Below the pieces are notes generated by a model, which worked only from the letters and a program-made list of their open reading frames with translations, did no database searches and was not told the DNA's origin. The position numbers were made by a program, and so were the translations under genes. Below, in pieces: positions 7,872-29,780 of a stretch of DNA of 34,329 nucleotides; position 1 is the first letter of the stretch, and the number at the start of each line of letters is the position of its first letter. The stretch lies in assembly GCA_905478895.1 (NCBI GenBank), contig CAJQKK010000066.1:1-34329 (forward strand), given 5' to 3'. Source of the stretch: an uncultured Flavobacteriales bacterium. GTDB taxonomy: Bacteria > Bacteroidota > Bacteroidia > Flavobacteriales_D > Sanyastnellaceae.

Positions 7872-9548
7872 TTAATCGAGCACGAACAGTTTGGATGGTT
7901 TTCTAGCGTCCGTATGTGCATCCGTCCATTGAATGAAATATATGCCTGCCGGGAGGTTCATTTCAATTCCTTCGCTTCGGATGCTTGACCAATGCATGAC
8001 TTGCTGTCCGTTTGCGTTAAATATGCGGCCTGCGGAAGCGGCCTGCAAAAGCTGACCGTTGCGAATCGGATTCGGATACGGCTCCTTCCAGTTCAGAATA
8101 GGGTTCGTTCCTAAGCCATTTCCGGCTCCGTTGCTAGCGTTGGGTGTCGGCAGATTAAACGCGATCCATGGAAGACCCGCATCATAACTGCGGCCAAACG
8201 ATTTCCCGAGCGAAAGAGCTGGCACATCGATGGCATCAGCGATGGTGAAACCATCTGGCGAGCGGAGTGCAAGTGGCTCACCGTTGGAGCTAATCTTGAA
8301 ATTCGCGTGGTTCCATCCCTGTGATTCGTCTTCGTCTGCAAAAATCATCAGAAAGCCTGATGGAGGAATGATTGTTGAGTCACAATTACACGAAGGAATT
8401 AACCACTTCTGTGGCTGATCCAAACGATCTGTCAAATAATAATTTGCAATATCAATCGGTGTGTTGCCAAAATTATAAATTTCAATCCAGTCGTCGTATT
8501 CTCCTGTATTGTCCGCATACGTAATGAAATTATCGGACTGGACTTCGTTAATGACGAGGCTTCCAGGCTGGATGATTTGCAGGGCATTGGTTGCACGCGC
8601 GGTTGGAAAATCAAAAACGATCCAATTGAGCGAGCCGTCCTGTTCCCTGCCCCAGCTCTGATCCTCTGCCAAATTATCATTCCATTCAGCAGAATCGATG
8701 ATTGCCCCGTCATTGCCAATAAGGTTGAGCGTGCCGCCTTCAGACGGCGAGAGCGATACGTGGTTACTTCCTTGTTCTACTTCATTGTCAAACCAAAAGA
8801 TTTGGAACCCATTGGATGGGATGGTAGTCAGCCAAGGTTCAGTGTTCTCAAAGGTGTGGGAAACTCCGTTGATTTGAAGTGTGTACCCCGCAAGATTCAC
8901 TTGATCGTCATTTGGATTAAAGAGTTCAACCCAGGCATCGAATTCATTCATTTCATCCGCTACCGTAGAAGTGTTCGCAACTTGGATTTCATTGATGTAA
9001 AGCAAAGATGGGCTGAGAATTGTTTCGGCATTCGGCGCATCTGGAGTTGGGCTATTGAAATATTGCCATTCGGCACAACCGTCACACGTGGCGCCAAATG
9101 AGATGTTGTCCTGCTGAATTCCGAATGAAACGCTATCGATAATGGTTATGCCATCCGTACCAACAAAATAGACGGTCTCCCCTTCCCCGCTTAGTTTGAA
9201 ATTCGCATGGTCCGAACCTTGCTGTTCATCCTTGTCACACCAGATGCGAATGTGGCCATTGGGCAGGATGGTTGTTAATCCCGGATCATCCAAAGGAAAA
9301 ATCCATTTGTCCAGACTGTCCGGGTCATCGGTTAAATGATACCCCGCCAAATCCTGAATTCCGCCACCATTGTACAATTCCACCCAATCTTCGTATTGAA
9401 AGAAATCATCATAATCCAATGAAGCATTAGATGCCAATATCTCGTTGATTTGGATATTCTGACCTGTGGAAATCGTTGCAATCGATATGTTAAGCAGCAG
9501 CAATATCAATAGCTTGAGACCGCGGTTTTGGTGTTCGATTCGTTTCAT
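7872..9548 (-). CDS. Secreted protein with three lamin-tail domains and T9SS sorting domain
   Basis: Protein of 558 residues. A signal peptide (1-30, hydrophobic LKLLILLLLNISIATIS, then TGQ) is followed by three tandem lamin-tail-domain modules at 31-173, 181-321 and 329-472. Each begins with (I/V)NEIxxxN, has an ExxDWVELYN-like strand, GYxLTD, a P(N/S)GxxxxxxDxxxxxGxxHxxFxxS segment, and ends with NxPTPxAxNA. The last about 70 residues (YPNPIRNGQL to PSKLFVLD) form a T9SS sorting domain. The start at 9548 (MKRIEH) gives the signal peptide; the frame runs open to 9677 but overlaps the upstream gene. It lies 25 bases after the stop of the TPR/PD40/SPOR gene, so the two are likely cotranscribed. 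Bacterial lamin-tail modules are often attached to surface nucleases and phosphatases, but no enzyme domain is seen here. Confidence 0.9.
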   Translation of the reverse strand: MKRIEHQNRGLKLLILLLLNISIATISTGQNIQINEILASNASLDYDDFFQYEDWVELYNGGGIQDLAGYHLTDDPDSLDKWIFPLDDPGLTTILPNGHIRIWCDKDEQQGSDHANFKLSGEGETVYFVGTDGITIIDSVSFGIQQDNISFGATCDGCAEWQYFNSPTPDAPNAETILSPSLLYINEIQVANTSTVADEMNEFDAWVELFNPNDDQVNLAGYTLQINGVSHTFENTEPWLTTIPSNGFQIFWFDNEVEQGSNHVSLSPSEGGTLNLIGNDGAIIDSAEWNDNLAEDQSWGREQDGSLNWIVFDFPTARATNALQIIQPGSLVINEVQSDNFITYADNTGEYDDWIEIYNFGNTPIDIANYYLTDRLDQPQKWLIPSCNCDSTIIPPSGFLMIFADEDESQGWNHANFKISSNGEPLALRSPDGFTIADAIDVPALSLGKSFGRSYDAGLPWIAFNLPTPNASNGAGNGLGTNPILNWKEPYPNPIRNGQLLQAASAGRIFNANGQQVMHWSSIRSEGIEMNLPAGIYFIQWTDAHTDARKPSKLFVLD

Positions 9549-9573
9549 GAAAATGATAAAGACGTGGCGCCCG

Positions 9574-12500
9574 CTATTCGTTGATGATTTGCAATTCTGT
9601 ATTTCTAAAGCCGCGATCAATGCAAACTTCCATTGCTTTCTTCGCAGCCTCCAAGTTCGGGAAAGTTTTGGAAACATAAACGGTAGAGTTCCCTGAGCGT
9701 ATTGTAGTCAATGGGATCTCGTTTCCGAGTCGGAGCAAACGCGCTACCTGTGCCGGTTCCAGATGCTCTTCAAACTGAACGATTTTCAATCGAAACTGTC
9801 TTCCCCTGCTCTCTTTCTTCTTCTTGGCTTTTGCCTCGGGTTTTTCAGAGGCTGTGACAACCACATTGGGTTTAGCGGCAACTTGGATTGTTTCTTTCGC
9901 TACAGGTTTGATGAAAGCATCAGGGATTTCTCGCTGGATTTCTGTGAGCAATGACTTCGCATCCATTGAAGATTCGAAGGTTCCAAGCATGTATCGATTG
10001 ATGCCATCGGTAGACGTTTCTTTGGTGGATTGTTCGAACCACTTGGATTTATTTTTGGGCGAACCTTTGAAGGCGCCAATCTGAATGGTGAAGTGATTCC
10101 GTTCAAATGCTTCAGGCGAAGTATTGGCTACGCGGTCACTGCTTGGAGTTGGCATCGGATTGATCTCCGCTACAGCAACTTCAACGGATGCACGAGTTAC
10201 AGGCTCGGATTCGTCCTTTGATGTTGATTCAGGAATCGGTTGTCCGATTGACGTGGCAGTTGCAGGAGCAGCAATAGCGATCGATGCAACGTCAACTTTG
10301 TCTTGACGTGGAGTGATTGTCCCGCCAAATAGCGCATGCAATTCTGCTTCTAGGCTTGAACGCATGGCGATTGCGTTAGTCATTGATTCTCTGTAGCCTT
10401 GAGCTTGAGTGCTTTTTGTCCGAATCACATCGAGTTCTTCCAAGTACAATTCTGCCTGTTGCACAATGGGAGCATTGTTTTCAGAGAACATTTCAAATCC
10501 TGAGTAGTCATTCGATTCATTTTCGGTTGAAGCCCCAAACGTTTGCCACCATTGCCCTGCTGTCATTTGAGCTTCTTCCTTCACGACGTCTCTTTTGTCA
10601 GCTCCTTGCCGGAATGTTTCCCATGCCAAGCCAACCGCTGCTTGGCCCCGGGCCATTTGTTCCTTTGGAAGGTTGGCCTCTTTCGCATCTTCAATCAATC
10701 CCCCAGACCGAATAAACCAAGATTGGGCGTTTTCCATTTCCGGCAACGTATATACCCCAAGCTCCTGGACGTTGATGATGCTATCGGTGAGTTGATTCCA
10801 TAAAATCTCTTGAGCTCCAAACCACTTAAAGCTCAGCGAATCTTCCTTTTGAACAGTGCTTGATGCGGCGAGTTGAATGGCTTCTGATAGGTTTTGATTC
10901 TTTCCAGTGTATTCGAGGAATTCTGCACGAAACTCAGAGGACTCCATGGGAAATGCTTCCGTAATCCAACGATCATAGACCAGATGGGCTTCGATTCGCC
11001 GGTGCATGTCTTGGATTTGGACCAATGCCGAAGCGGTTGCCTTCACCTGGGCGTTCACATAATCAGAAATGGTTAGCCAATCTTGCGAAATATTGAGTCT
11101 GCCCGCTAGGTGCTTATCAATGGTGTTTTTCCAGACCTTCCATGCATTTAAATTGTTCGCTGTAACACTGGCAAGACCTTTTGATTTTTCAGAGAGTACT
11201 CCGAGTGCAGGTTCTCCAAATCGTTTGATCGCATTTTGAACCTGCCATTTGTTGCTTCCAGGGGCTTCCCAACAATGAATTGTCTCTATGTTGTTTTGAA
11301 GTTGCATCGCTCTTGAACGAATGTTGCTGACTGTTTCTGGCGTCTCTTTGGGGTTGATTTCTCCGATTTCTTCTAAGGCTTTCACCACCCAACTGGGGAT
11401 CGAATGTTCTCCTAGTTCGTAGCTTCCGGGAGACACGGATTCCTGGGCCATTAAAATGCGTTGGATGTTGGCGGGCTCACTATTCCCGTTTCTCAATTCA
11501 TTTGCTAATCCAGCATTTACATCTTCGAACCAAATCCCCTTGTGTTGATTCGCCTTCATCGCAGCCGTACTCCAACGGAGCGCTGGCTCATCAACATAAT
11601 TTGACGGGCGCCCAACCAGTCCGACTTTGCCTTTTTCAGTTTTGCCTACAACCAGGTCGTTCATTGCCATTTTCGGCGATGTTGCGGACGGTATTTGGAT
11701 CGATTCTTCCCAAAGCGTGACGCCATTTTCATCTTTCCAAATCAATGCAATAGCACTATTGTCTTGAAAAATGAGGTCCATAGGTTCCTGGTTGTTGCCG
11801 TCCATTGTCAGCAATTCAACTCCTGCAGTCATGTTGGTGATGATCAAACGTCCCTTCTTAATGTCCTCGTCAATTTTCACCCGCAGCGCGACAGGCTGGG
11901 ATGTTTTCAGTTCATCGTTGATCTGTAGGATTTCTTTTCCTTCGAAATCTTGGTTTCGGTTCGTGGAAAGCCATTTTGATTCGTTCCTAGGACTGGCATA
12001 GTAAAGAAATTCATCGGATGAACTGTTTATTTCCATTGGCAACTGAACGACAGCACTTAGGTTGTCCTCTAGGGGCTCTGATGCGAAGAAGTCACCGCTC
12101 ACCTGAAAAACATCAAGACCGCCGAATGATTCAGGGCGAGAGCTACTGAAAAAAAGTTGATCAGCGGACCCCATCGCATTATCAAGGGAAACACAGATTG
12201 GCGAACAGTCATCAAATTCACTATTGATTGGTGCTGGCAATCGTTCGGGCTCCCCATAAACTCCCATGCCATTGACCGATACACGGTAAATGTCGAGACC
12301 AGTGTCGCCTTGTCTTCCGTAGCTCGCATAAAAGGCATGTCGTTTGCTAGGCAGCCAATGCATCGTTGAGTGATAGTTGTTTTTCTTATCATAACGGGTC
12401 CGCAGTGCTTCAGGCGTCTTCAGAATGCGTCCGTCTTCGATCGGCATTTCGAAAAGACGGAAATAATCATTGGAATGGGAAATTAGCGTGGAATGTACCT

Positions 12501-13053
12501 CGAAGTTTATCGCATCAATGGGCATTGACTCCTTGGTCAAACATTGACCATAACAAAGCTTAGCGTCGGTTAACCAAGGTTCATTGGTTCTTCCAGAATC
12601 GATGGCCTTCCTGTAGTGCCCTAATGCTCCCTGGAAATTGTAGTTCAAATGCATCAGTCGTCCCTGATAATAATGCCATTCAGATGCGTGCTCAGTTTCT
12701 AAAATCCCCAAATCTTTCGCCCAACGCAGGTGTTCTTCTGCTTCTGATAGCCTGCTTGACGTGTAGGTGCAGATGGAGCCATAACGGAAATGGAGAAAAG
12801 AGCGTTCACTGGCGATGCTTACGAGATGCGCAAACAAGCCGTACGCTTTACTCATTTCTCCTGCTTCGAAGGATTCCTCTGCACGATGAACATTTTTTGC
12901 CAGGTCTTTTTCCGTCCAATCCGCCCCCTGGGCATCCAGACCAGAGGCAGCAAGAAAGTGAAAGATCCCGATCAAAAGAAGAGACTGTAGCTTGGCTCGA
13001 ATGGAGGCAGAGCTAATCAAGGGAGTGCAAACAGGTAAGCGCATTTTCGGCAT
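9574..13053 (-). CDS. Exported TPR / PD40 / tandem SPOR-like envelope protein
   Basis: Protein of 1159 residues of unknown function. A signal peptide with hydrophobic core LQSLLLIGIFHFLAASGLDAQ is followed by a TPR-like helical region (about 58-158), then PD40/WD40-like propeller repeats (about 228-320, with HAFYASYGRQGDTGLDIYRV and DQLFFSSSRPESFGGLDVFQ), a long helical middle, and two SPOR-like modules at the end (about 986-1053, starting FTIQIGAF, and 1085-1159, starting FRLKIVQF), joined by a Lys-rich linker. The TPR-PD40 layout is shared with OmpA-family proteins such as PorE of Bacteroidota, but here SPOR replaces OmpA as a possible peptidoglycan anchor. The start at 13053 (MPKMRLP) has an A-rich upstream sequence and a shorter n-region; the frame is open to an ATG at 13104. 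It precedes the lamin-tail T9SS gene by 25 bases. Confidence 0.8.
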   Translation of the reverse strand: MPKMRLPVCTPLISSASIRAKLQSLLLIGIFHFLAASGLDAQGADWTEKDLAKNVHRAEESFEAGEMSKAYGLFAHLVSIASERSFLHFRYGSICTYTSSRLSEAEEHLRWAKDLGILETEHASEWHYYQGRLMHLNYNFQGALGHYRKAIDSGRTNEPWLTDAKLCYGQCLTKESMPIDAINFEVHSTLISHSNDYFRLFEMPIEDGRILKTPEALRTRYDKKNNYHSTMHWLPSKRHAFYASYGRQGDTGLDIYRVSVNGMGVYGEPERLPAPINSEFDDCSPICVSLDNAMGSADQLFFSSSRPESFGGLDVFQVSGDFFASEPLEDNLSAVVQLPMEINSSSDEFLYYASPRNESKWLSTNRNQDFEGKEILQINDELKTSQPVALRVKIDEDIKKGRLIITNMTAGVELLTMDGNNQEPMDLIFQDNSAIALIWKDENGVTLWEESIQIPSATSPKMAMNDLVVGKTEKGKVGLVGRPSNYVDEPALRWSTAAMKANQHKGIWFEDVNAGLANELRNGNSEPANIQRILMAQESVSPGSYELGEHSIPSWVVKALEEIGEINPKETPETVSNIRSRAMQLQNNIETIHCWEAPGSNKWQVQNAIKRFGEPALGVLSEKSKGLASVTANNLNAWKVWKNTIDKHLAGRLNISQDWLTISDYVNAQVKATASALVQIQDMHRRIEAHLVYDRWITEAFPMESSEFRAEFLEYTGKNQNLSEAIQLAASSTVQKEDSLSFKWFGAQEILWNQLTDSIINVQELGVYTLPEMENAQSWFIRSGGLIEDAKEANLPKEQMARGQAAVGLAWETFRQGADKRDVVKEEAQMTAGQWWQTFGASTENESNDYSGFEMFSENNAPIVQQAELYLEELDVIRTKSTQAQGYRESMTNAIAMRSSLEAELHALFGGTITPRQDKVDVASIAIAAPATATSIGQPIPESTSKDESEPVTRASVEVAVAEINPMPTPSSDRVANTSPEAFERNHFTIQIGAFKGSPKNKSKWFEQSTKETSTDGINRYMLGTFESSMDAKSLLTEIQREIPDAFIKPVAKETIQVAAKPNVVVTASEKPEAKAKKKKESRGRQFRLKIVQFEEHLEPAQVARLLRLGNEIPLTTIRSGNSTVYVSKTFPNLEAAKKAMEVCIDRGFRNTELQIINE

Positions 13054-13108
13054 GTTTATTCGACGACAAGTTATAGGCTGTTTTGAACGATGCTCGGAGC
13101 TCATCCAT

Positions 13109-19638: not shown

Positions 19639-21663
19639 TTATTTCCAATTCGAAATGGAATAAGCAGCTTCCAAACCTTCGCGAATTGCCCTTTGCGCGT
19701 CTAGTTTGCGGGCATCAAGTGCTCCTCCTATTCGTTCAACGCAAATGCCTTTAGCCCCCAACTGCGTATGCAATGGAGCGAAACTTGTCTGCCCTGCACA
19801 AACCACGACATGATCGAATGACAGGCTGTGCGTCTCTCCCGACTCAATGAATTCCAATTTTCCGTTTTCAAAAGCAAGGTATTGAACACCACTGTGCGTA
19901 ATTACACCTTTGTTTTTTAGCTGAAGGCGATGAATCCAACCGGTGGTCTTGCCAAGTTTGCCTCCTACTTTGCCCGCTGATCTTTGAAAGATATGAATTG
20001 ACCTTGGTGATTGAACAAGCTCTGGGCTGTTTACCCCCCCTCGGCTACTCAGGGATTGGTCAATGCCCCATTCTTCGAAAAAACCGGGTTTTTTCGTGTG
20101 GGTCAAATATTCTGCGACGTCAAAGCCTATTCCACCGGCACCAATGATAGCGACCCGCTTTCCCGGCTCGACCTTTCGTTTGAGTACGTCGAGGTAACTC
20201 AATACTTCAGGAGTTTCTGCCCCTGGAATGTCCCAGGAGCGCGGCTTCACACCGGTGGCGAGAATGACATGATCAAATCTGAGCAGGGAATTGACGTCCG
20301 CCTCCGTATTGAGTTGGAGATTGACATCATAGTGAGTGAGCATAAAACCAAAGTAGCGCAACGTTTCATGAAACTCCTCCTTGCCAGGAATGCGTTTGGC
20401 CATGTTGAATTGCCCCCCAATTTCAGCAGCAGATTCAAACAAAGTGACCTGATGCCCCAAACGAGCCGCTTCAATTGCAGCGCTCAATCCTGCGGGTCCA
20501 GACCCCACTACAGCGACGCTTCGAACTTCCGTGGCTTTGGCTTGCAATGGCCATTTGGATTCATAACTCGCTCTGGGATTCACCAAACACGTTGCAATTT
20601 TATTTTGAAAGATGTGATCGAGGCATGCTTGATTGCAACCGATGCACGTGTTGACAGAATGCGGATTCGTCTTGGATTTGTTGACGATTTCGGGATCGGC
20701 CAAGAAGGGACGCGCCATAGAAACCATGTCAGCGCAACCCGATTGAAGCGCCGTTTCACACGCATCAATGGTGTTGAATCGGTTGGTTGTGATGAGCGGA
20801 ACCCCTACATGTCCCATCAGTTTTTTTGTGACGAATGCAAATCCCCCTCGAGGAACCAAGGTTGCTATCGTAGGGATCCGAGCTTCATGCCATCCAATGC
20901 CCGTATTGATTGCGTCTACGCCTTCTCGTTCCAACGCTTTCGCTAATGATTGGATTTCATCCCAGCTGCTTCCCTCCTCGATTAGGTCCAGCATGCTCAA
21001 ACGAAAAATGATAGCGAATTCAGTCCCAACTTTTTCTCTGATGCTTCGAATGATTTCAATTGGAAATCGCATCCGGTTCTCAAAGGTTCCTCCGTATTGG
21101 TCCTGCCTTTTATTGGTGGCGGAGACCAGAAATTGATTGATGAGATAGCCTTCCGAGCCCATTATTTCAATTCCGTCGTAACCGGCTTCTTTGGCAATGG
21201 CGGCACATTTCGCGTATTGCAGGATCGTTTTCTTGACACCACGAATGGAAAGACTGGCCGGTTTGAAACGATTGATGGCCGCTTTAATGCTGGAAGGGGC
21301 CACATTTAAGGGATGATAGCTGTACCGACCACCATGCAGAATTTGAAGGCAAATTTTACCGCCATTTGCATGCACCGCATCTGTTATGATTTGATGTTTC
21401 TTGATTTGGCGCCGGGCCGTCAATTTGGCTCCGCCGGGCTTCAGCACTCCCCTGCGGTTTGGTGAGATGCCACCGGTAATGATGAGGCCTGCTCCCCCTT
21501 TGGCTCGTTCTCCATAAAATTGTGCCAACGCATTGAAACCATCTTTTGCTTCTTCCAGTCCGGTGTGCATGCTTCCCATTAAAATTCGATTGGGAAGGTG
21601 AAGCGGTCCCAGCTGAATGGGCTGGAACACCTGCAATTCTTTCGTTGAATTCAAATTGGTCAT
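19639..21663 (-). CDS. FadH-like NADH:flavin oxidoreductase (2,4-dienoyl-CoA reductase family)
   Basis: Iron-sulfur flavoprotein of 674 residues with the FadH layout. A TIM-barrel of the old-yellow-enzyme family (1 to about 330) carries Y173 (EGYLINQFL) and H259 (GIGWHEAR), which match the acid/base pair of E. coli FadH. The 4Fe-4S ligands are C340, C343, C347 and C359 in CIGCNQAC and KIATCLVNPRA. Then comes a dinucleotide-binding part with VVGSGPAGLSAA (386-397) and a second IGAGGIGFDVAEYL motif. Residues match 2,4-dienoyl-CoA reductase, used in oxidation of unsaturated fatty acids, but related trimethylamine and enone reductases share this layout. It follows the giant exported-protein gene by 16 bases, so it is probably cotranscribed. 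Confidence 0.9.
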   Translation of the reverse strand: MTNLNSTKELQVFQPIQLGPLHLPNRILMGSMHTGLEEAKDGFNALAQFYGERAKGGAGLIITGGISPNRRGVLKPGGAKLTARRQIKKHQIITDAVHANGGKICLQILHGGRYSYHPLNVAPSSIKAAINRFKPASLSIRGVKKTILQYAKCAAIAKEAGYDGIEIMGSEGYLINQFLVSATNKRQDQYGGTFENRMRFPIEIIRSIREKVGTEFAIIFRLSMLDLIEEGSSWDEIQSLAKALEREGVDAINTGIGWHEARIPTIATLVPRGGFAFVTKKLMGHVGVPLITTNRFNTIDACETALQSGCADMVSMARPFLADPEIVNKSKTNPHSVNTCIGCNQACLDHIFQNKIATCLVNPRASYESKWPLQAKATEVRSVAVVGSGPAGLSAAIEAARLGHQVTLFESAAEIGGQFNMAKRIPGKEEFHETLRYFGFMLTHYDVNLQLNTEADVNSLLRFDHVILATGVKPRSWDIPGAETPEVLSYLDVLKRKVEPGKRVAIIGAGGIGFDVAEYLTHTKKPGFFEEWGIDQSLSSRGGVNSPELVQSPRSIHIFQRSAGKVGGKLGKTTGWIHRLQLKNKGVITHSGVQYLAFENGKLEFIESGETHSLSFDHVVVCAGQTSFAPLHTQLGAKGICVERIGGALDARKLDAQRAIREGLEAAYSISNWK

Positions 21664-21679: not shown

Positions 21680-24600
21680 TCACTGGAATTCACGGTATTC
21701 ATCTACAAAATCGTTGCGACGGTAATTATTGGTGATTGCCTTGTAAGAATAGGTTCTTCCGTCACCGTCCTTTTTGGTTCTTTTTTTGTCTCCAATCTCA
21801 GCGATCGCACTCAAGAACCCAGCGCGATCAGGTGTTGAACAATTGAGTGTTTCCTTGCGGTAATCGAAATGGTACCAGTTTTCTTCGTCACCGTGCAAAT
21901 AGAGGGTAAAGGAATCATTCGATCGGCTTCTTCGCAGGATTAGTTTTCCCGGAATTGCTTGGAATACGGGCGTACTACCGAGCGAAGCAATGGCGAATTC
22001 GCTGGTGGAGACAAATGCTTCGAGCCTCGGTTCCCATGTCATTTCAAGGCCTGTCAAGACGACTTGAGAGCGCATTGATTTGGGGGTGTTTTTTAATTTC
22101 CCCGTCATCGCCAAATCATTGACGAGCTTCGCACTCTCTTTAGCACCGAGCCAAGCTTGGAGTGCCTGTTCGTAATTGGTCTCGACGATGTTGACCGGTT
22201 CGGCCGGTTCCCATGATGGGATTTGCAAGGCCATCCGATCGTACAGAACTTGGTCAAGGTCAATGTCCAGTCGCATCGATCCTTTGAATACATACTCCCC
22301 TCGCGGGTTGACTTCAAAGGCCCCCACAAACGATTGGTTCACTAAGCCAAAGTTTAAAGGCAACTTCATCAACCCGGTGCCTCTCAAATCACACGTCGAA
22401 GGCCGGATATCGACATGGGCTTCACTCGAATTGGGGTTTTCAAACTTCTCTCGAGTTGAGAATGTGTAGCGTTCATCTTGATACCTCAGTTCACCTGCTG
22501 TGTTTAGGATGTTCAAGTCTGACTCATCGCCCTGGGGGTCCAAAAATGCGCCATAAACCGTGAATGGTGGGCGTGATGACGCCATAAGACCATAGGCAAG
22601 CAAATCACCCTCTGTGTCTCGGGGAGGATCTAAAACGGGAATGGCGATGGCTTTGGGATTGATGTAACCTTCAAATGCAATCCAAGTCCGCTGCATTCGC
22701 TTGCATTCTTTGGTCATTTTCGCCCCCCCGCTAAAATACAAATGCGGCTGAGAGGATACCATTTTTATGTCTCCTGCAAATGCAAAGGCCGGTCCCAGTA
22801 AAAACCCATTGCGGGCCATGATGGAACCTCCACCCGTGGTTCGAAGGCTGTCATCTACCTGGATATCGTCGAATAGAATCCGATTGACTTTTCCATCATT
22901 CGATGTGTAATTGTAAAGTCCAGCGCCTTCAAAAGCATATTTTCCATAAACATTTAGAAAGGCAGAATCAATGAAGTGATAACGGGTGGTGGCATTCGTC
23001 ACTATTTGGGCGAAGCGGAGCTCGTCCATCTTGGCTTTGGCTCGAATGACCAAGCGTCCGCTGTCTGGAATGATACGGGAGTCGGCAATGGCGAGTGATT
23101 CAACGCCTTTGCATGTAAGCATGTCTTCTCCAATTCGATACGTAGCACTTGAACTCAAGAAGTGAAGAGAGTCTTGATCGGGATGGGCTGAAATAAAGTT
23201 GGAGCTTGTGCGGTCGTCGTTAAAATCAAGCGGCATTCCTTCTTGACTGCGGTTGGTCAGCAAATCAATTTCATCCTCGTCCATGTACCACCGGAACCGA
23301 TCCATAAAGCAGATATACTGTTGAATCGGCAGTTCGATTCTTGTTTCGCCGGAATTTGGAGAGAAGACACCGAGCCGTTCTTGAAAATTCAAATCACACG
23401 CTACATCATCTGTTCTAAAGGCCGTGATCTGAGCTCGGTTTCCGTTTAAGGAAAAGGTCGCTGATGGCGACTTCAAGTTTGTCTTGAGGAAGTCAAATTC
23501 ATTGGATGATAGCGAGGCATCTTTCAACTCAATCAGGCCTCTGCCCGCAAATGCACGAGGCGTAACTCGGGCAATACCTGTCAGGCGAGCTTCTTCTTGG
23601 TAAAACTCAAAAGGACTGTTTCCGGAGCTCATATCCAATTGTTTGCGTGAAGGATGAAATGCGAAGGTGCCATTTACCCCCTGCATCGCGGCGGTATTGC
23701 GCACCTCGTCTGCCTCATTGATGAACAACTCAGCCTGCCCTATGATGGAATCAGGCAGCATCGTCATGGACGAACTTTCAATGTGTGCCGTGATGAAATC
23801 AATGCTCCCCTGCCCCTGTAGCCCATTTCCATCCAATTTAATGTCCTTGGTGAATGTAGCCGCGTCTGAATAAACATCGATTCCTTCAGGCGCAGAACTT
23901 GTTTCAAGTCCGAGGTAATAATCGTCCATTACCTTCAGCGGAAGAGGCAAGTCCTTCAGAATGCCTGCCGAAACAAGGGTGCCATCCAATGTGAAGCCTG
24001 ACTTGGTTAAGTTGTCGAGCTGTTTCAATTGAAAGGGTTCTACTGCGAAGTAAAAGTCATCCCGGGCATAAGCACCTTCGAACAGGTCGAAGCGATCATA
24101 ATAAACAAAACTCGTCACTGTGCTTTCAAATACGGGGTAGTCTGGATGCAAGTCGCTCCTTCTTCCAGACCGGTTGGTGGGATAATCAATGGACAATGTG
24201 CCCGAAACCCCTTCGATTTGGCTATTTAAACGACGTTTTCGCGGGGTGCCTCGGTTGTTCAGTTCGTCCTCGTTGTAAACGCTGAGTTGAATCGACTCTA
24301 TGGCGTCAAAGTCTATCGTGAAGTCTGAATAGTCAAAAGAAAATGCGTCACCGGCCATTTGAATATTGCCCGCTTGAATTCGTCCATCGAATAGAAAATC
24401 ACGATCACGCTTGACCACAATCTCGCCATTCGCCGGATACAGGAGAACGTCCTTCGCGGTGCTCAGTCGAATTTGGTCTATCCCATTGATTTGAAAGTAC
24501 CCATTGAGCAAACTCCATTCTGCATTCACGCCATTAATCGGACTGGAATTAAAGCGCATAACGTCATAATCCTTCCGACCTGTTTTGCAGTAAATGTGAT

Positions 24601-26191
24601 CCTTTAATTTCTGGGTGGTTTGAACCCAAAGGGTCTCGGGATTGATTTCGACATAGCCCAAGTTGGCCAATTGCATCAGCATGACACGTGCCTGAACCTC
24701 ACTCAATCGGATATAACGGGCAAAGTCTTCGGTCATGAAACCTGACCGCCCTGACTCTTTTGTAAACCGATACACTTCTATGACTGGATTCACAGGGTCA
24801 ATGCCCTGGATGGCATCGAAGGAACTCTGCTCAAAGTAGTTCGTACTTGAAAATTGGGCAATCGATTGCCCAGCGTCAAGCGCAGAACCCACAAGGACCC
24901 GTGGCTGGTCAATTTCCCAGAGAATGCCGGAAACATCCCACTCCAGGTCGTGGTATCTGTCAAGAAAAGGCTGCTGGCCTAACCCCTGTTCTTGGCGATA
25001 GGCGGCAACTTGCCGTCGACCATTGTTGTACCGACTCTGGACATCGGGATGGCTCAGCGTGTCTCCTGAGAAATGCATGATAAATTCAGCATTGGAGCAT
25101 GACCAGCCGGAAGATGAAAAAAGGAATTGATTCCCATGAAATTCCATGAATGTAGTGTCAGCCTGCATCACATTGATTCTGGCCCGTTGAGACTCATTTC
25201 GAATGCCGAGGATTTGGGAGCCTTTGAACTGAACCCCTCCGATATAATTGGTCTGAGGAAACACTTCCTCTAGTTTTATCTGCTCTTCTTCGCACCGAAA
25301 TCGAGGATACGATTTTTCGGCCGGGCTTTTTGCTGATTCGAGCTTGACAACGAATGATCCCCTTAAAGGTTTTCCAGCGAGTTCTGCATGCATAATGCAA
25401 CTGGGAACCCGAAATCGATCACTTTTCAAGTCAATGGTCGAAGCCGGAAGCTCAGCATAATACATATTAGGGTTGAAGATTGTACCCTCCCATTGAACCT
25501 GAGATGGGGTGATGCTAAGTTCTTCATCTCGAAGGTCCCATTCGCCCGATGTATTTAAAACGGTAAAATGGTCCATTTCACTTCGAGCAGTGAGCTGTGT
25601 GTTTTCAAAGATGAGCATTGGCACATTTTGATGCCATTCGAGCTTCCATCTCATCGAGTCCACTTCCCACCAGTGTTTGTTGGTCGAATAGAGGATGTTA
25701 TTGGCGATCAACTCAGGCGAAATAGCGAGAAGTTCAAAACCAGTTTTGCGGTATTTTTTGTTGGACCACATCCGACTCGCAAAAGAATGCCAGTCGTCCC
25801 AAAGTTCTTGCTTGTCCGGCGCGCTCAAAGCCAATACGGTACGCAGGTAATTTCGAATGTCCTTGCTTCCAGACGCTCGGGCATCTTCCAAGGCTGTCAC
25901 GACCTCTTCTACTGTTTCAATCTTGGCTTCCATATCCAGCGAAGCGCAAAGGGACGGCATGAGTGTTTTTTTTACCCAACGGCCATCTTCCTTTGAAACA
26001 TTGTTCATGAGATTGGTCAAACGGACTTCAAGTGCCTCACAGGCCTCTGACTGTGCATGAATCGTCCCCGTCATTGCAAAGCAACCCAAAACAGCCAGAA
26101 GGAGAAACCTGAGGCCTGTGATTTGACGGTTGATGATGGGAGAGGCGAAAAACTCCATGGTTCGAAAATTACAACGAACCTTTGCCGACAT
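21680..26191 (-). CDS. Giant exported beta-rich protein of unknown function
   Basis: Protein of 1503 residues that I cannot assign to a characterised family. The signal peptide has the core LRFLLLAVLGCFAMTG and a cleavage site after HAQ (about 47). Residues about 50-170 are helical. The rest is mostly short alternating beta-strands rich in F, D and S, reminiscent of beta-taco or jelly-roll bridge proteins (LptD/OstA, AsmA, TamB types), but with no diagnostic motif. Two similar segments near 778-826 and 868-918 share a GxGxI...A.(I/L)SS pattern. Residues about 484-532 look like an inserted winged helix. There is no lipobox, transmembrane helix or T9SS tail, so the protein is probably periplasmic. 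The start at 26191 lies six bases after prmA; ATG 26158 is an alternative. Its operon is tpiA-prmA-this gene-FadH-like. Confidence 0.85.
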   Translation of the reverse strand: MSAKVRCNFRTMEFFASPIINRQITGLRFLLLAVLGCFAMTGTIHAQSEACEALEVRLTNLMNNVSKEDGRWVKKTLMPSLCASLDMEAKIETVEEVVTALEDARASGSKDIRNYLRTVLALSAPDKQELWDDWHSFASRMWSNKKYRKTGFELLAISPELIANNILYSTNKHWWEVDSMRWKLEWHQNVPMLIFENTQLTARSEMDHFTVLNTSGEWDLRDEELSITPSQVQWEGTIFNPNMYYAELPASTIDLKSDRFRVPSCIMHAELAGKPLRGSFVVKLESAKSPAEKSYPRFRCEEEQIKLEEVFPQTNYIGGVQFKGSQILGIRNESQRARINVMQADTTFMEFHGNQFLFSSSGWSCSNAEFIMHFSGDTLSHPDVQSRYNNGRRQVAAYRQEQGLGQQPFLDRYHDLEWDVSGILWEIDQPRVLVGSALDAGQSIAQFSSTNYFEQSSFDAIQGIDPVNPVIEVYRFTKESGRSGFMTEDFARYIRLSEVQARVMLMQLANLGYVEINPETLWVQTTQKLKDHIYCKTGRKDYDVMRFNSSPINGVNAEWSLLNGYFQINGIDQIRLSTAKDVLLYPANGEIVVKRDRDFLFDGRIQAGNIQMAGDAFSFDYSDFTIDFDAIESIQLSVYNEDELNNRGTPRKRRLNSQIEGVSGTLSIDYPTNRSGRRSDLHPDYPVFESTVTSFVYYDRFDLFEGAYARDDFYFAVEPFQLKQLDNLTKSGFTLDGTLVSAGILKDLPLPLKVMDDYYLGLETSSAPEGIDVYSDAATFTKDIKLDGNGLQGQGSIDFITAHIESSSMTMLPDSIIGQAELFINEADEVRNTAAMQGVNGTFAFHPSRKQLDMSSGNSPFEFYQEEARLTGIARVTPRAFAGRGLIELKDASLSSNEFDFLKTNLKSPSATFSLNGNRAQITAFRTDDVACDLNFQERLGVFSPNSGETRIELPIQQYICFMDRFRWYMDEDEIDLLTNRSQEGMPLDFNDDRTSSNFISAHPDQDSLHFLSSSATYRIGEDMLTCKGVESLAIADSRIIPDSGRLVIRAKAKMDELRFAQIVTNATTRYHFIDSAFLNVYGKYAFEGAGLYNYTSNDGKVNRILFDDIQVDDSLRTTGGGSIMARNGFLLGPAFAFAGDIKMVSSQPHLYFSGGAKMTKECKRMQRTWIAFEGYINPKAIAIPVLDPPRDTEGDLLAYGLMASSRPPFTVYGAFLDPQGDESDLNILNTAGELRYQDERYTFSTREKFENPNSSEAHVDIRPSTCDLRGTGLMKLPLNFGLVNQSFVGAFEVNPRGEYVFKGSMRLDIDLDQVLYDRMALQIPSWEPAEPVNIVETNYEQALQAWLGAKESAKLVNDLAMTGKLKNTPKSMRSQVVLTGLEMTWEPRLEAFVSTSEFAIASLGSTPVFQAIPGKLILRRSRSNDSFTLYLHGDEENWYHFDYRKETLNCSTPDRAGFLSAIAEIGDKKRTKKDGDGRTYSYKAITNNYRRNDFVDEYREFQ

Positions 26192-26197
26192 TGGTAT

Positions 26198-27052
26198 TCA
26201 GTTTGCTTTGTTTACCAACAACAGGCAGGCCCAACCATCGCGATCAAATGATTCTGACAATTCAAGGCCTTGTCCTTCTGCCTCGTTCAGGAGAACAGGA
26301 ATGTCAGCGGGAAAGAAACCACTCAGAACAAGGTGGCCGCCCTCATAAAGGTGGCGCACGTAAGTGCGCATATCCGCCAAAAGGATGTTCCGGTTGATGT
26401 TCGCCAATATGGTGTGAAAGGAGCAGTCTGTGGTTGAAAGCGTGTTGGCGTCACCGAGCCGTGCCTCAATTTGACCGTCGAGCCCATTGCGCTGGATGTT
26501 ATCCAGCGTATTCCGATAAGACCATTCGTCGTTGTCTATGGCCACGACGCGGGCTGCGCCTAATTTCCTCGCGGCAATGGCAAGCGCTCCTGTTCCGCAA
26601 CCCATGTCCAAGACATTTTGACCCGCCGGCTGAAGGGCATGCACAGCGTGCATCATTTGCCAAGTGGTTGGGTGATGCCCCGTGCCGAAGGACATTTCAG
26701 GCTGTATGATGATATCCAAACCGGAAACAGGAGGCGCATGGAATGGAGCACGCATCATGATTTTACCGTCGACATCGATGGGGTCGTAATTGGATTCCCA
26801 TTGTGCATTCCAATTTTCTGATTCCACCCAGTTTTCTTCTACACTTATCGCTGCAAGTTCGCGCAATTGCTCAAGCACAAATCGGTATTCTTCTTCATTG
26901 AATGCGACGTCTTTGGCGTAAGCAATAAGTCGATCTCCCTCCTCCTCAAACATGTCAAATCCACAATTACTTAGGTACGCTATTGCTACTTCCTTTGCGG
27001 GCAAGGCAGGCGAGCACATCAACGATGCCTTGAAGTATTTGGACTCTTTCAT
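26198..27052 (-). CDS. prmA: Ribosomal protein L11 methyltransferase
   Basis: SAM-dependent methyltransferase of 284 residues that trimethylates ribosomal protein L11. The N-terminal domain (1 to about 75) binds L11. The family motif EMSFGTGHHPTT is at 119-130, the SAM motif VLDMGCGTGALAIAARKLGA at 147-166, the acidic VVAIDND at about 170, and the catalytic NPPY-like block appears as LANINRNIL, as usual in PrmA. Length and motif order are normal. It starts nine bases after the tpiA stop and ends six bases before the giant exported-protein gene, so it sits within one operon. Confidence 0.95.
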   Translation of the reverse strand: MKESKYFKASLMCSPALPAKEVAIAYLSNCGFDMFEEEGDRLIAYAKDVAFNEEEYRFVLEQLRELAAISVEENWVESENWNAQWESNYDPIDVDGKIMMRAPFHAPPVSGLDIIIQPEMSFGTGHHPTTWQMMHAVHALQPAGQNVLDMGCGTGALAIAARKLGAARVVAIDNDEWSYRNTLDNIQRNGLDGQIEARLGDANTLSTTDCSFHTILANINRNILLADMRTYVRHLYEGGHLVLSGFFPADIPVLLNEAEGQGLELSESFDRDGWACLLLVNKAN

Positions 27053-27061
27053 AACCCTGCC

Positions 27062-27820
27062 TTATGAGGCTTCCGACGCAGCGATCAGGGCCAGGAAGGA
27101 TGATGCTTCCAATGCTGCGCCGCCAATTAAACCACCGTTAACATCCGGTTGCCCGAAAATTTCGGCTGCATTAGAAGGCTTGCAACTTCCGCCGTACAAA
27201 ATGCGTGTAGTTGAGGCCACTTGGGAATTGTACCATTGGCCAAGTTGCTCTCGGATGAAGCGATGCATTTCTTGCGCTTGATCTGCTGAGGCTGTCACGC
27301 CTGTACCAATGGCCCAAACCGGTTCGTACGCTATCGTAATGTTTGCCATTTTAGCAGCATCGATGTCGGCCAAGGCGTCTTTGAGTTGCGTCGAAATCAG
27401 ATCAAAGTGCCCTTCAGACTCACGGACTGCTAACGACTCACCGCAACACAGCAACACATGAAGGCTCGCGCCTACGGCTTGGTTGACCTTTGACCGCACT
27501 GCCTCAAATGATTCACCAAATCGATCCCTCCGCTCAGAATGGCCGACGATGACATGTGTTACGCCCGTTGAGTGAAGCATTTTAGCCGTGTATTCACCCG
27601 TATGCGCTCCGTGGTCATGTTCACTGCATTGCTGAGCGCTCAAATGAACCGAATCAGCTCGGTATTGAGCTGAAAACTGAGCGAGATAAGGAGAGGGCGG
27701 AGCTACAATAACCTCCGTTTTGTGCAATGTTGGAAGCCCTTTTGTGATGGCATCCATCAACTCTATCCCTTCATTCATTAATTTGTTGCTCTTCCAGTTC
27801 CCTGCGACAATGTTCCTCAT
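27062..27820 (-). CDS. tpiA: Triosephosphate isomerase
   Basis: Glycolytic enzyme interconverting dihydroxyacetone phosphate and glyceraldehyde 3-phosphate. The 252-residue length is normal. Catalytic residues are N8 and K10 (AGNWKSNK), H94 (IVGHSERR) and E166 (IAYEPVWAIGTG), with the flexible loop 6 and the phosphate-binding YGGSCKPSNA and GGLIGGAAL blocks present. The start at 27820 (MRNIVAGNWK) is exact for the family, although the frame stays open to 27940. It is the first gene of the tpiA-prmA-giant protein-FadH-like cluster. A GAACTTCGC element lies 21 bases upstream as a possible -7 box. It is divergent from recQ, with 61 bases between. Confidence 0.97.
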   Translation of the reverse strand: MRNIVAGNWKSNKLMNEGIELMDAITKGLPTLHKTEVIVAPPSPYLAQFSAQYRADSVHLSAQQCSEHDHGAHTGEYTAKMLHSTGVTHVIVGHSERRDRFGESFEAVRSKVNQAVGASLHVLLCCGESLAVRESEGHFDLISTQLKDALADIDAAKMANITIAYEPVWAIGTGVTASADQAQEMHRFIREQLGQWYNSQVASTTRILYGGSCKPSNAAEIFGQPDVNGGLIGGAALEASSFLALIAASEAS

Positions 27821-27841
27821 GACCTTTGTTGTAATTGAAAC

Positions 27842-27850
27842 GCGAAGTTC
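27842..27850 (-). promoter_or_regulatory. Weak putative -7 box of the tpiA operon
   Basis: The minus strand reads GAACTTCGC, two mismatches from TAnnTTTG but matching the TTYGC core shared by other boxes in the window. It is 21 bases upstream of tpiA, in the 61-base gap shared with recQ. Confidence 0.25.
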
Positions 27851-27881
27851 GCAATTGGAATTGTTTAAATGAACAGATGTG

Positions 27882-29780
27882 ATGATTGATTCACCCCAAG
27901 TACCCTTGGATGAAAAGCGATTGCTTGAATTGCTCAACAATCATTGGCATTTTGAGTCGTTTCGCGAACAGCAAAAACCCCCAGTTTTTTCTCTTGCTAG
28001 TGGAAAGGATACATTGGCTGTGCTCCCAACAGGAGGTGGCAAATCCTTGTGCTATCAAATTTCCGGTCTGTACCGTGGTGGTATATGCTTGGTCATCTCA
28101 CCCCTTGTAGCCCTTATGCAAGATCAAGTTGAAGGCTTGAAGGAAAAGGGGCTGAACGCAATTTCACTCGCAGGAAACCTTAATTACAGAACGATTGAAC
28201 GCTTATTGGACAATGCCGAGCGCTTGCCCTGTTGCTTCCTTTATTGTTCGCCAGAGCGGCTCCACCATCCGTTGCTCAAATCGCGTCTCCAACGTCTACC
28301 CATTCGAACAATTGTAGTTGATGAAGCGCATTGCATTTCACAATGGGGCCATGATTTCCGGCCCGAATATCGCATGGTTTCTTCCCTTCGCGATCAATGC
28401 CCAGGAGCCGCTTGGGGCGCCTTCACGGCTACGGCTACGCAAAATGTGCTGAAAGATATTGAGGTGCAATTGAAACTGGATGCGGCTGGCGTTTTTGAGT
28501 TTCCCATGCAACGTGCAAATCTGATCTATTCCGTATTTACCTCTGGTGATGCTGAAAAGGAACTTTTATTGGCGTTGAAGCGATCCCGAGGATCCGGCTT
28601 GCTGTATGTTGCAAGCCGGTCAGAAGCGGAGTTCTGGTCAGACAGGATGAGGCAGATTGGAATCCAAAGTTCGGCTTACCATGCGGGGATTCCTGCTCCG
28701 GAACGGCTGAAAATCCAAACGTCTTGGATGACTGGCGACTACCGAGTGTTGGCCTGTACCAGCGCTTTTGGAATGGGAATTGACAAGCCGGATGTGCGGT
28801 TTGTTTTTCATGCATCACCCCCTCAAGATTTGGAAAGCTATGTACAAGAAGCTGGTCGTGCGGGACGTGATGGAGAACCCAGCCTTTGCATGCTATTCAT
28901 GAACCGGAATTCCTTGGACTTGAGTCGAAAAAAGCTCGAACAGAAAGCCCCTGATTTACGAGCCATTCAAAAAGTATACCAAGGCTTGGCCAATCAGGGT
29001 TCAGTTCCTGTTGGCGCTCGGCCTGAAGAGCCAACCATTTTCGATGCAGACCTCTGGCTGAAAGGCAGTGAAATGCGTCATTTCGATTGGAATTTGAGCA
29101 TGAATTATTTGAATCGATCCGGCTACATTTCCAGTGATCGATTAGATGATGGTGAGCGTTTTGAAATAGCGTTACGGGAATCTTTGACTGAAAGCTCACT
29201 TGAAGGGAATCCAACTGCCATCCGAATGCGAAGCGCTCTATCCGATTGGTTTCGCACCCATGAGTCAAATGCGATTGTTCCAATTCAGTCATTGAAACAA
29301 TCGTCCGGGATGACAGCTCATCAATGCAGGATTGAGTTGGATCGGCTTAAGAAATGGGGTTTTATTGAAAGCCGACGATTGCCACCATTGTATCAGATTG
29401 AATGGATACGTCCGCGTGAAGAGGCAAAAAACGTCATTCTCCCCCAATCCCTAATGGTTGATTGGGTGCAGTCCTTGGAAGCAAAATGGGAAGCATTCTC
29501 AGCGTATGCAGCCTCAACAAATTGCAGGCAGCAGATCATACAACGTTATTTTTCGGGAGACGAGGTCCAGGCGTGTGAGAATTGCGATAATTGCATGAAA
29601 GCCAATGAATCATGGGCCAGAGAAAAATGGCTTATCGCTATTCCCGAGCAAGGCCTCGAAATTGTACAATTGGCGAATCGTGTTCCGGTTCGTTACAAAT
29701 CGGTGCTGTTCCATTTCCTTGATCTCTGGGCAGAGTCCAATGAGATCGAGGTGGTCAATCGCACCATCTATCGGAATTGA
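27882..29780 (+). CDS. recQ: RecQ-family ATP-dependent DNA helicase (short form)
   Basis: Superfamily 2 3'-5' DNA helicase of 632 residues used in recombination and repair. Walker A is LPTGGGKSLCYQ (48-59), the DEAH box VVDEAHCISQWGHDFRPEY starts at 145, and the arginine-finger motif VQEAGRAGRDGEPS follows the IDKPDVRFVFH block. The zinc cysteines are C548, C565, C568 and C571 (CENCDNC). In E. coli RecQ this cluster follows the helicase core directly; here about 165 residues lie between them. Only about 60 residues follow, and no HRDC domain is seen. This is a short RecQ, probably a paralogue of a full-length one. The frame begins at a GTG (27879); the adjacent ATG at 27882 is preferred. It is divergent from tpiA. 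Confidence 0.92.
   Translation: MIDSPQVPLDEKRLLELLNNHWHFESFREQQKPPVFSLASGKDTLAVLPTGGGKSLCYQISGLYRGGICLVISPLVALMQDQVEGLKEKGLNAISLAGNLNYRTIERLLDNAERLPCCFLYCSPERLHHPLLKSRLQRLPIRTIVVDEAHCISQWGHDFRPEYRMVSSLRDQCPGAAWGAFTATATQNVLKDIEVQLKLDAAGVFEFPMQRANLIYSVFTSGDAEKELLLALKRSRGSGLLYVASRSEAEFWSDRMRQIGIQSSAYHAGIPAPERLKIQTSWMTGDYRVLACTSAFGMGIDKPDVRFVFHASPPQDLESYVQEAGRAGRDGEPSLCMLFMNRNSLDLSRKKLEQKAPDLRAIQKVYQGLANQGSVPVGARPEEPTIFDADLWLKGSEMRHFDWNLSMNYLNRSGYISSDRLDDGERFEIALRESLTESSLEGNPTAIRMRSALSDWFRTHESNAIVPIQSLKQSSGMTAHQCRIELDRLKKWGFIESRRLPPLYQIEWIRPREEAKNVILPQSLMVDWVQSLEAKWEAFSAYAASTNCRQQIIQRYFSGDEVQACENCDNCMKANESWAREKWLIAIPEQGLEIVQLANRVPVRYKSVLFHFLDLWAESNEIEVVNRTIYRN

Follow-up and report, generated by a model that had tools for sequence, protein, structure and literature searches.

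A large exported protein of Bacteroidia with a predicted Lpt-type beta-taco as a candidate periplasmic bridge or scaffold

The window (the whole stretch of 34,329 nucleotides analysed here) carries on its minus strand a gene for a giant exported protein, set among housekeeping genes. A single open reading frame of 1503 aa with an ATG start is confirmed. Its start (26191) lies 6 bases from the prmA stop (26198) and its stop (21680) 16 bases from the next start (21663), so that the prmA and FadH-like flanks of the original prediction, with these gaps, are confirmed by reading-frame coordinates and Pfam. The genes at the locus are:

19639 to 21663, minus strand: old-yellow-enzyme/FadH-like reductase, downstream neighbour at a 16-base gap (Pfam Oxidored_FMN, E 3.2e-79)
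21680 to 26191, minus strand: gene of the giant exported protein, 1503 aa (open reading frame and homologues)
26198 to 27052, minus strand: prmA, upstream neighbour at a 6-base gap (Pfam PrmA, E 3.7e-43)
27062 to 27940, minus strand: tpiA, upstream of prmA (Pfam TIM, E 3.3e-84)

The reductase combines the Pfam domains Oxidored_FMN and Pyr_redox_2. The tpiA frame as listed opens with a TTG about 40 codons before the likely ATG, and the real start is probably this inner ATG, MRNIVAGNWKSNK. Elsewhere in the window, positions 7872-9677 (minus) encode a protein of 601 aa that contains three Lamin Tail Domains (PF00932); its frame overlaps by about 100 bases a frame of 1176 aa (9574-13104, minus) without any Pfam match.

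The housekeeping-operon setting is true of the window but lineage-specific. Of 71 loci, 35 have prmA as the immediate upstream gene in the same orientation, at gaps of -68 to 175 bases, the negative values reflecting the earliest possible starts. The downstream neighbour is the reductase in 17 loci and plsY in 16; in other lineages a thiolase, enolase or nucleotide-sugar dehydratase-like gene (named from the sequences) adjoins the giant gene. Because the context changes between lineages, a functional reading of the prmA operon was rejected, and the context offers no functional clue. In lineages with the order prmA-giant-plsY, a second large protein of about 1838 aa, with only a weak PD40 match, is encoded downstream of the giant gene or of plsY (L082:6602-12115 and cluster c2, 35 loci).

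The protein opens with a type I signal peptide that reads ...FLLLAVLGCFAMTGTIHA/QSEACE... (the slash marks the cut), with a hydrophobic N-terminus and a cleavage site of the A-x-A/Q type before Q47 (...TIHA/QSEACE). The true start may be an inner ATG at codon 12. Judged by simple scoring rather than SignalP, a cleavage-like site is present in 65 of 69 homologues (about 95%). The lipobox pattern occurs in only one of these 69; the window protein is without it, its LGC sitting within the hydrophobic core and off the pattern. Beyond the N-terminus the window protein has no further strong transmembrane window. A T9SS C-terminal sorting domain is matched neither in Pfam nor, at E 10, in NCBIfam, and the C-terminus is conserved and helical. 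The signal peptide and the lack of a lipobox, a T9SS tail and a further transmembrane helix, all claimed originally, are thus borne out.

By sequence, the protein has no match in Pfam, NCBIfam or PDB; profile searches against Pfam and PDB return weak winged-helix matches and otherwise chance-level ones, and no description was found in the literature searched. Homologues are present in 56 of 61 genomes of the source family (38 of 41 good genomes), in 228 of 238 good genomes of the order and, by profile search, in 309 of 394 genomes of the class, that is, in roughly four out of every five Bacteroidia sampled. Searching the phylum with a single sequence recovers only 10 of 295 genomes, so a profile is needed. 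Carriers almost invariably have one full-length copy (about 1470-1860 aa); identities across the class are about 23-47% along most of the protein or its entire length, and an alignment of 29 sequences contains 44 invariant columns, in which G, P, D, W and Y predominate. Judged from these sequences, class-wide conservation is far beyond chance, and the claim of a large, conserved, exported protein holds. Named homologue records are MAGs labelled Flavobacteriales, Cryomorphaceae, Crocinitomicaceae and Bacteroidales.

Non-carriers cluster in a few families (f3, f4, f5, f6, f11 and f97, labels of the search tool and not taxon names), with scattered others. The SprA of one non-carrier (G081, group f6/g27) matches PDB 6h3i, which we take to be F. 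johnsoniae SprA, over its whole length (4521 bits, few differences per line), and the group is very probably Flavobacterium. This best-studied gliding genus seems to be without the giant protein, which would explain why the protein is still unnamed and, Flavobacterium being the usual model, seems to have escaped study. In a family where 64 of 65 genomes carry the giant protein, the remaining genome (G648) has two TamB loci instead, one of them a short frame; this apparent natural switch may be an assembly gap.

The architecture was predicted with AlphaFold in two overlapping halves, each from 59 sequences: residues 47-1000 (mean pLDDT 89.6, pTM 0.70) and 560-1503 (mean pLDDT 89.6, pTM 0.62). 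The predicted parts, all on the minus strand, are:

26054 to 26191, minus strand: signal peptide, residues 1-46 (sequence; cleavage-like site in homologues)
25700 to 26047, minus strand: six-helix N-terminal bundle, residues 49-164 (model, pLDDT mostly 84-93)
24845 to 25696, minus strand: first beta region, residues 166-449 (model)
24575 to 24832, minus strand: predicted winged-helix domain, residues 454-539 (Z scores and weak profile matches)
22256 to 24556, minus strand: main beta region, residues 546-1312 (both models)
23258 to 23800, minus strand: predicted Lpt-type beta-jellyroll (beta-taco), residues about 798-978 (structural alignments, both models)
22103 to 22252, minus strand: helical insert, residues 1314-1363 (model)
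21836 to 22063, minus strand: last beta region, residues 1377-1452 (model)
21683 to 21826, minus strand: conserved, mostly helical C-terminus, residues 1456-1503, ...DFVDxFRxF (alignment and model)

Together the two models predict 89 strands comprising about 636 residues. Amphipathic strands number 27 of 48, against 17.6 expected from shuffling (maximum 29 in 1000). Weak internal repeats appear at offsets of 90 residues (781-823 with 871-913, probability 78%) and about 464 residues (approximately 539-596 with 1003-1052, probability 76%). As a rough estimate, 89 strands would make up some five or six units of LptA size, which could be long enough to reach across a periplasm. The protein is therefore beta-rich as first described, but the strands do not fill all of the roughly 1450 residues: 49-164, 1314-1363 and much of 1456-1503 are helical, and a winged helix intervenes.

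This winged-helix fold, predicted for residues 454-539, aligns with MepR-like 4xrf and Rio2 1tqi (VIA Z 9.2) and with LexA 3k2z (VIA Z 7.0), alongside weak profile matches to 3cta and 3jw4 (E 0.13-0.29). The statement that no motif could be named thus stands for Pfam and NCBIfam but gives way here. Such a module in an exported protein is unusual in itself. Its consensus helix, SExQxxxxLIxLANxG, has no basic DNA-reading face, so that binding to protein rather than to DNA appears the more likely role.

The beta-taco is the segment with the clearest structural relatives. The first half aligns with the LptD N-domain (VIA Z 12.5, 3.6 A, 159 residues), LptC 6mjp (Z 11.5, rmsd 2.6 A, 120 residues) and LptH 4uu4 (Z 10.5), and the second half with LptD (Z 10.8), LptC (Z 9.4) and LptA (Z 8.6). 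Lpt proteins rank top in the second-look alignments of both halves; since top Z scores of 7-8 are typical when nothing clearly matches, and unrelated rows reach about 7.5 here, the match stands out. Foldseek likewise places LptD chains among its best matches, with the ApoB100 lipid belt ranked lower, at low TM-scores over the whole model (0.05-0.18). The match is one segment, with about 180 of 1450 residues well matched. Profile comparison tells of no kinship: hhalign gives 0.1-2.4% probability for regions of the giant protein against Bacteroidota OstA_2, LptC and TamB profiles, at most 0.6% against TamB (PF04357), which has no Pfam match either, whereas the positive control, OstA against LptC, reaches 81-92%. 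With all values below 3% and a working control, membership in OstA_2, LptC or TamB was rejected. The Lpt resemblance, as modelled, is one of fold without detectable sequence kinship, and the fold may be convergent because of the missing profile link. What survives of the suggested LptD/OstA and AsmA/TamB texture is an Lpt fold in one segment; the profile relationship to OstA_2 and TamB, and an anchor of the AsmA/TamB type, do not.

We tentatively favour, at somewhat less than an even chance, a soluble periplasmic protein with a long beta-rich body that includes at least one Lpt-type beta-taco and acts as a beta-groove bridge or scaffold. Starting from the gene, conservation, export signal and predicted fold, which are obtained directly by computation, we infer residence in the periplasm, continuity of the groove, cargo, partners and transport. 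Sec would export the protein and signal peptidase I would release it. Acyl chains or other amphipathic cargo would sit against the hydrophobic inner face of the taco, while the helical bundle, the winged helix and the C-terminal helices might dock the protein to partners at the inner and outer membranes. It could then shelter its cargo or serve as a long scaffold, and a part in a lipid- or polysaccharide-transport system, as originally suggested, is plausible. This bridge or scaffold is supported by the confident models, the top ranks of Lpt proteins, the amphipathic strands, the weak repeats and the signal peptide without a lipobox, as well as by the single copy and near-universal presence in the lineages that hold it. 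Against it count the missing profile link, the small matched segment, the low whole-model TM-scores, the lack of a membrane anchor at either end and the absence of a functional hint from gene neighbours.

A further point against this bridge or scaffold comes from co-occurrence in 30 genomes (14 carriers and 16 non-carriers). Regardless of the giant protein, OstA_2 and LptD_2 are found in 30/30, LptC in 29/30 and TamB in 30/30, so that no missing transport step is explained. A role as replacement for missing Lpt parts was rejected for these genomes, Lpt genes occurring in carriers and non-carriers alike; the giant protein thus adds to the known systems here and replaces none of their core.

A somewhat unlikely alternative is that the protein serves outer-membrane or T9SS/gliding machinery as a scaffold or chaperone in the periplasm; the taco would then be a rigid structural or protein-binding module rather than a lipid holder, and the winged helix would bind protein. 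That an exported protein contains winged-helix and helical modules does suggest protein contacts, and the T9SS translocon gene sprA is present in all 14 sampled carriers. However, it is also present in 13 of the 16 non-carriers, so T9SS does not predict the giant protein; with sprA in 27 of 30 genomes, co-occurrence is uninformative on a T9SS-specific role, and the compared loci show no conserved neighbourhood with T9SS or outer-membrane-protein assembly genes. The sprA matches are single frames of about 2350-2570 aa, apart from one split into two frames of 1519 and 952 aa (G043:C2:2716693-2723858).

That the giant protein is its lineage's counterpart of TamB2, filling the same accessory role between the membranes wherever TamB2 is missing, is improbable. 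In F. johnsoniae, TamB is essential, whereas TamB2 is dispensable and of unknown function (PMC12045153). Among 102 Bacteroidia genomes, with loci counted by hand and part of the non-carriers inferred (drawn in the class sample and not listed as positive), a second TamB locus of about 1550-1700 aa occurs in 5 of 50 carriers and 36 of 52 non-carriers (Fisher p 5e-10 by genome, 8e-4 by family). The raw skew is strong, yet not independent of phylogeny: on a tree of OstA and LptC from the 30 genomes the giant protein changes state only about four times, which makes the skew inseparable from shared ancestry, and the three independent pairs on supported branches are too few for any significance. Moreover, five carriers have both proteins, and there is no profile similarity to TamB.

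Still less probable is a structural role at the outer membrane or the cell surface, with some strands forming a membrane barrel as in LptD. LptD does head the structural matches, and one alignment passes beyond the N-domain and, in the second model, extends as far as residue 624, but at 9.6 A it fits poorly. The model ends in helices and lacks a terminal barrel strand; no Pfam match to LptD or to the LptD_2 barrel (PF19838) is found, and a separate LptD_2 gene exists in every genome sampled. An exported enzyme or adhesin of a fold not recognised here is very improbable, there being no sequence match to any enzyme family in Pfam, NCBIfam or PDB and no catalytic motif that stands out among the invariant residues, although the fold search barely covers the N-terminal half and the bundle, so that a missing match means little.

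The bridge or scaffold favoured above also admits a stronger form, which we regard as rather unlikely: a class-wide, unrecognised intermembrane bridge for lipid or LPS-like molecules, made of a single secreted, unanchored chain equipped with docking parts of its own (helices and a winged helix), working beside Lpt and TAM in most Bacteroidia and lost in lineages that hold Flavobacterium. How phospholipid and LPS cross the Bacteroidota periplasm is largely open, and this unannotated protein, single-copy and near-universal, offers a candidate that can be tested directly, given the lipid-holding fold predicted for it. It may have been overlooked as one of the components by which Bacteroidia build or connect their two membranes.

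Compared with known systems, the giant protein shares with LptA, LptC and the N-terminal domain of LptD the predicted fold at about 798-978, export and amphipathic strands. It differs from them in its helical bundle and winged helix and in the absence of profile homology; it is many times longer than LptA and is without the barrel domain of LptD. The AsmA-like TamB and TamB2 of F. johnsoniae, described as containing repeated beta-taco units (PMC12045153), are similar in length (about 1500-1700 aa) and likewise periplasmic and beta-rich, the periplasmic location of the giant protein being predicted. In contrast to the N-terminal inner-membrane anchor of AsmA/TamB proteins, it has a cleavable signal peptide, and the TamB domain is detected by neither Pfam nor hhalign. 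Residues 454-539 share their predicted fold with winged helices of the MarR/MepR/LexA type but, unlike these, sit inside an exported protein.
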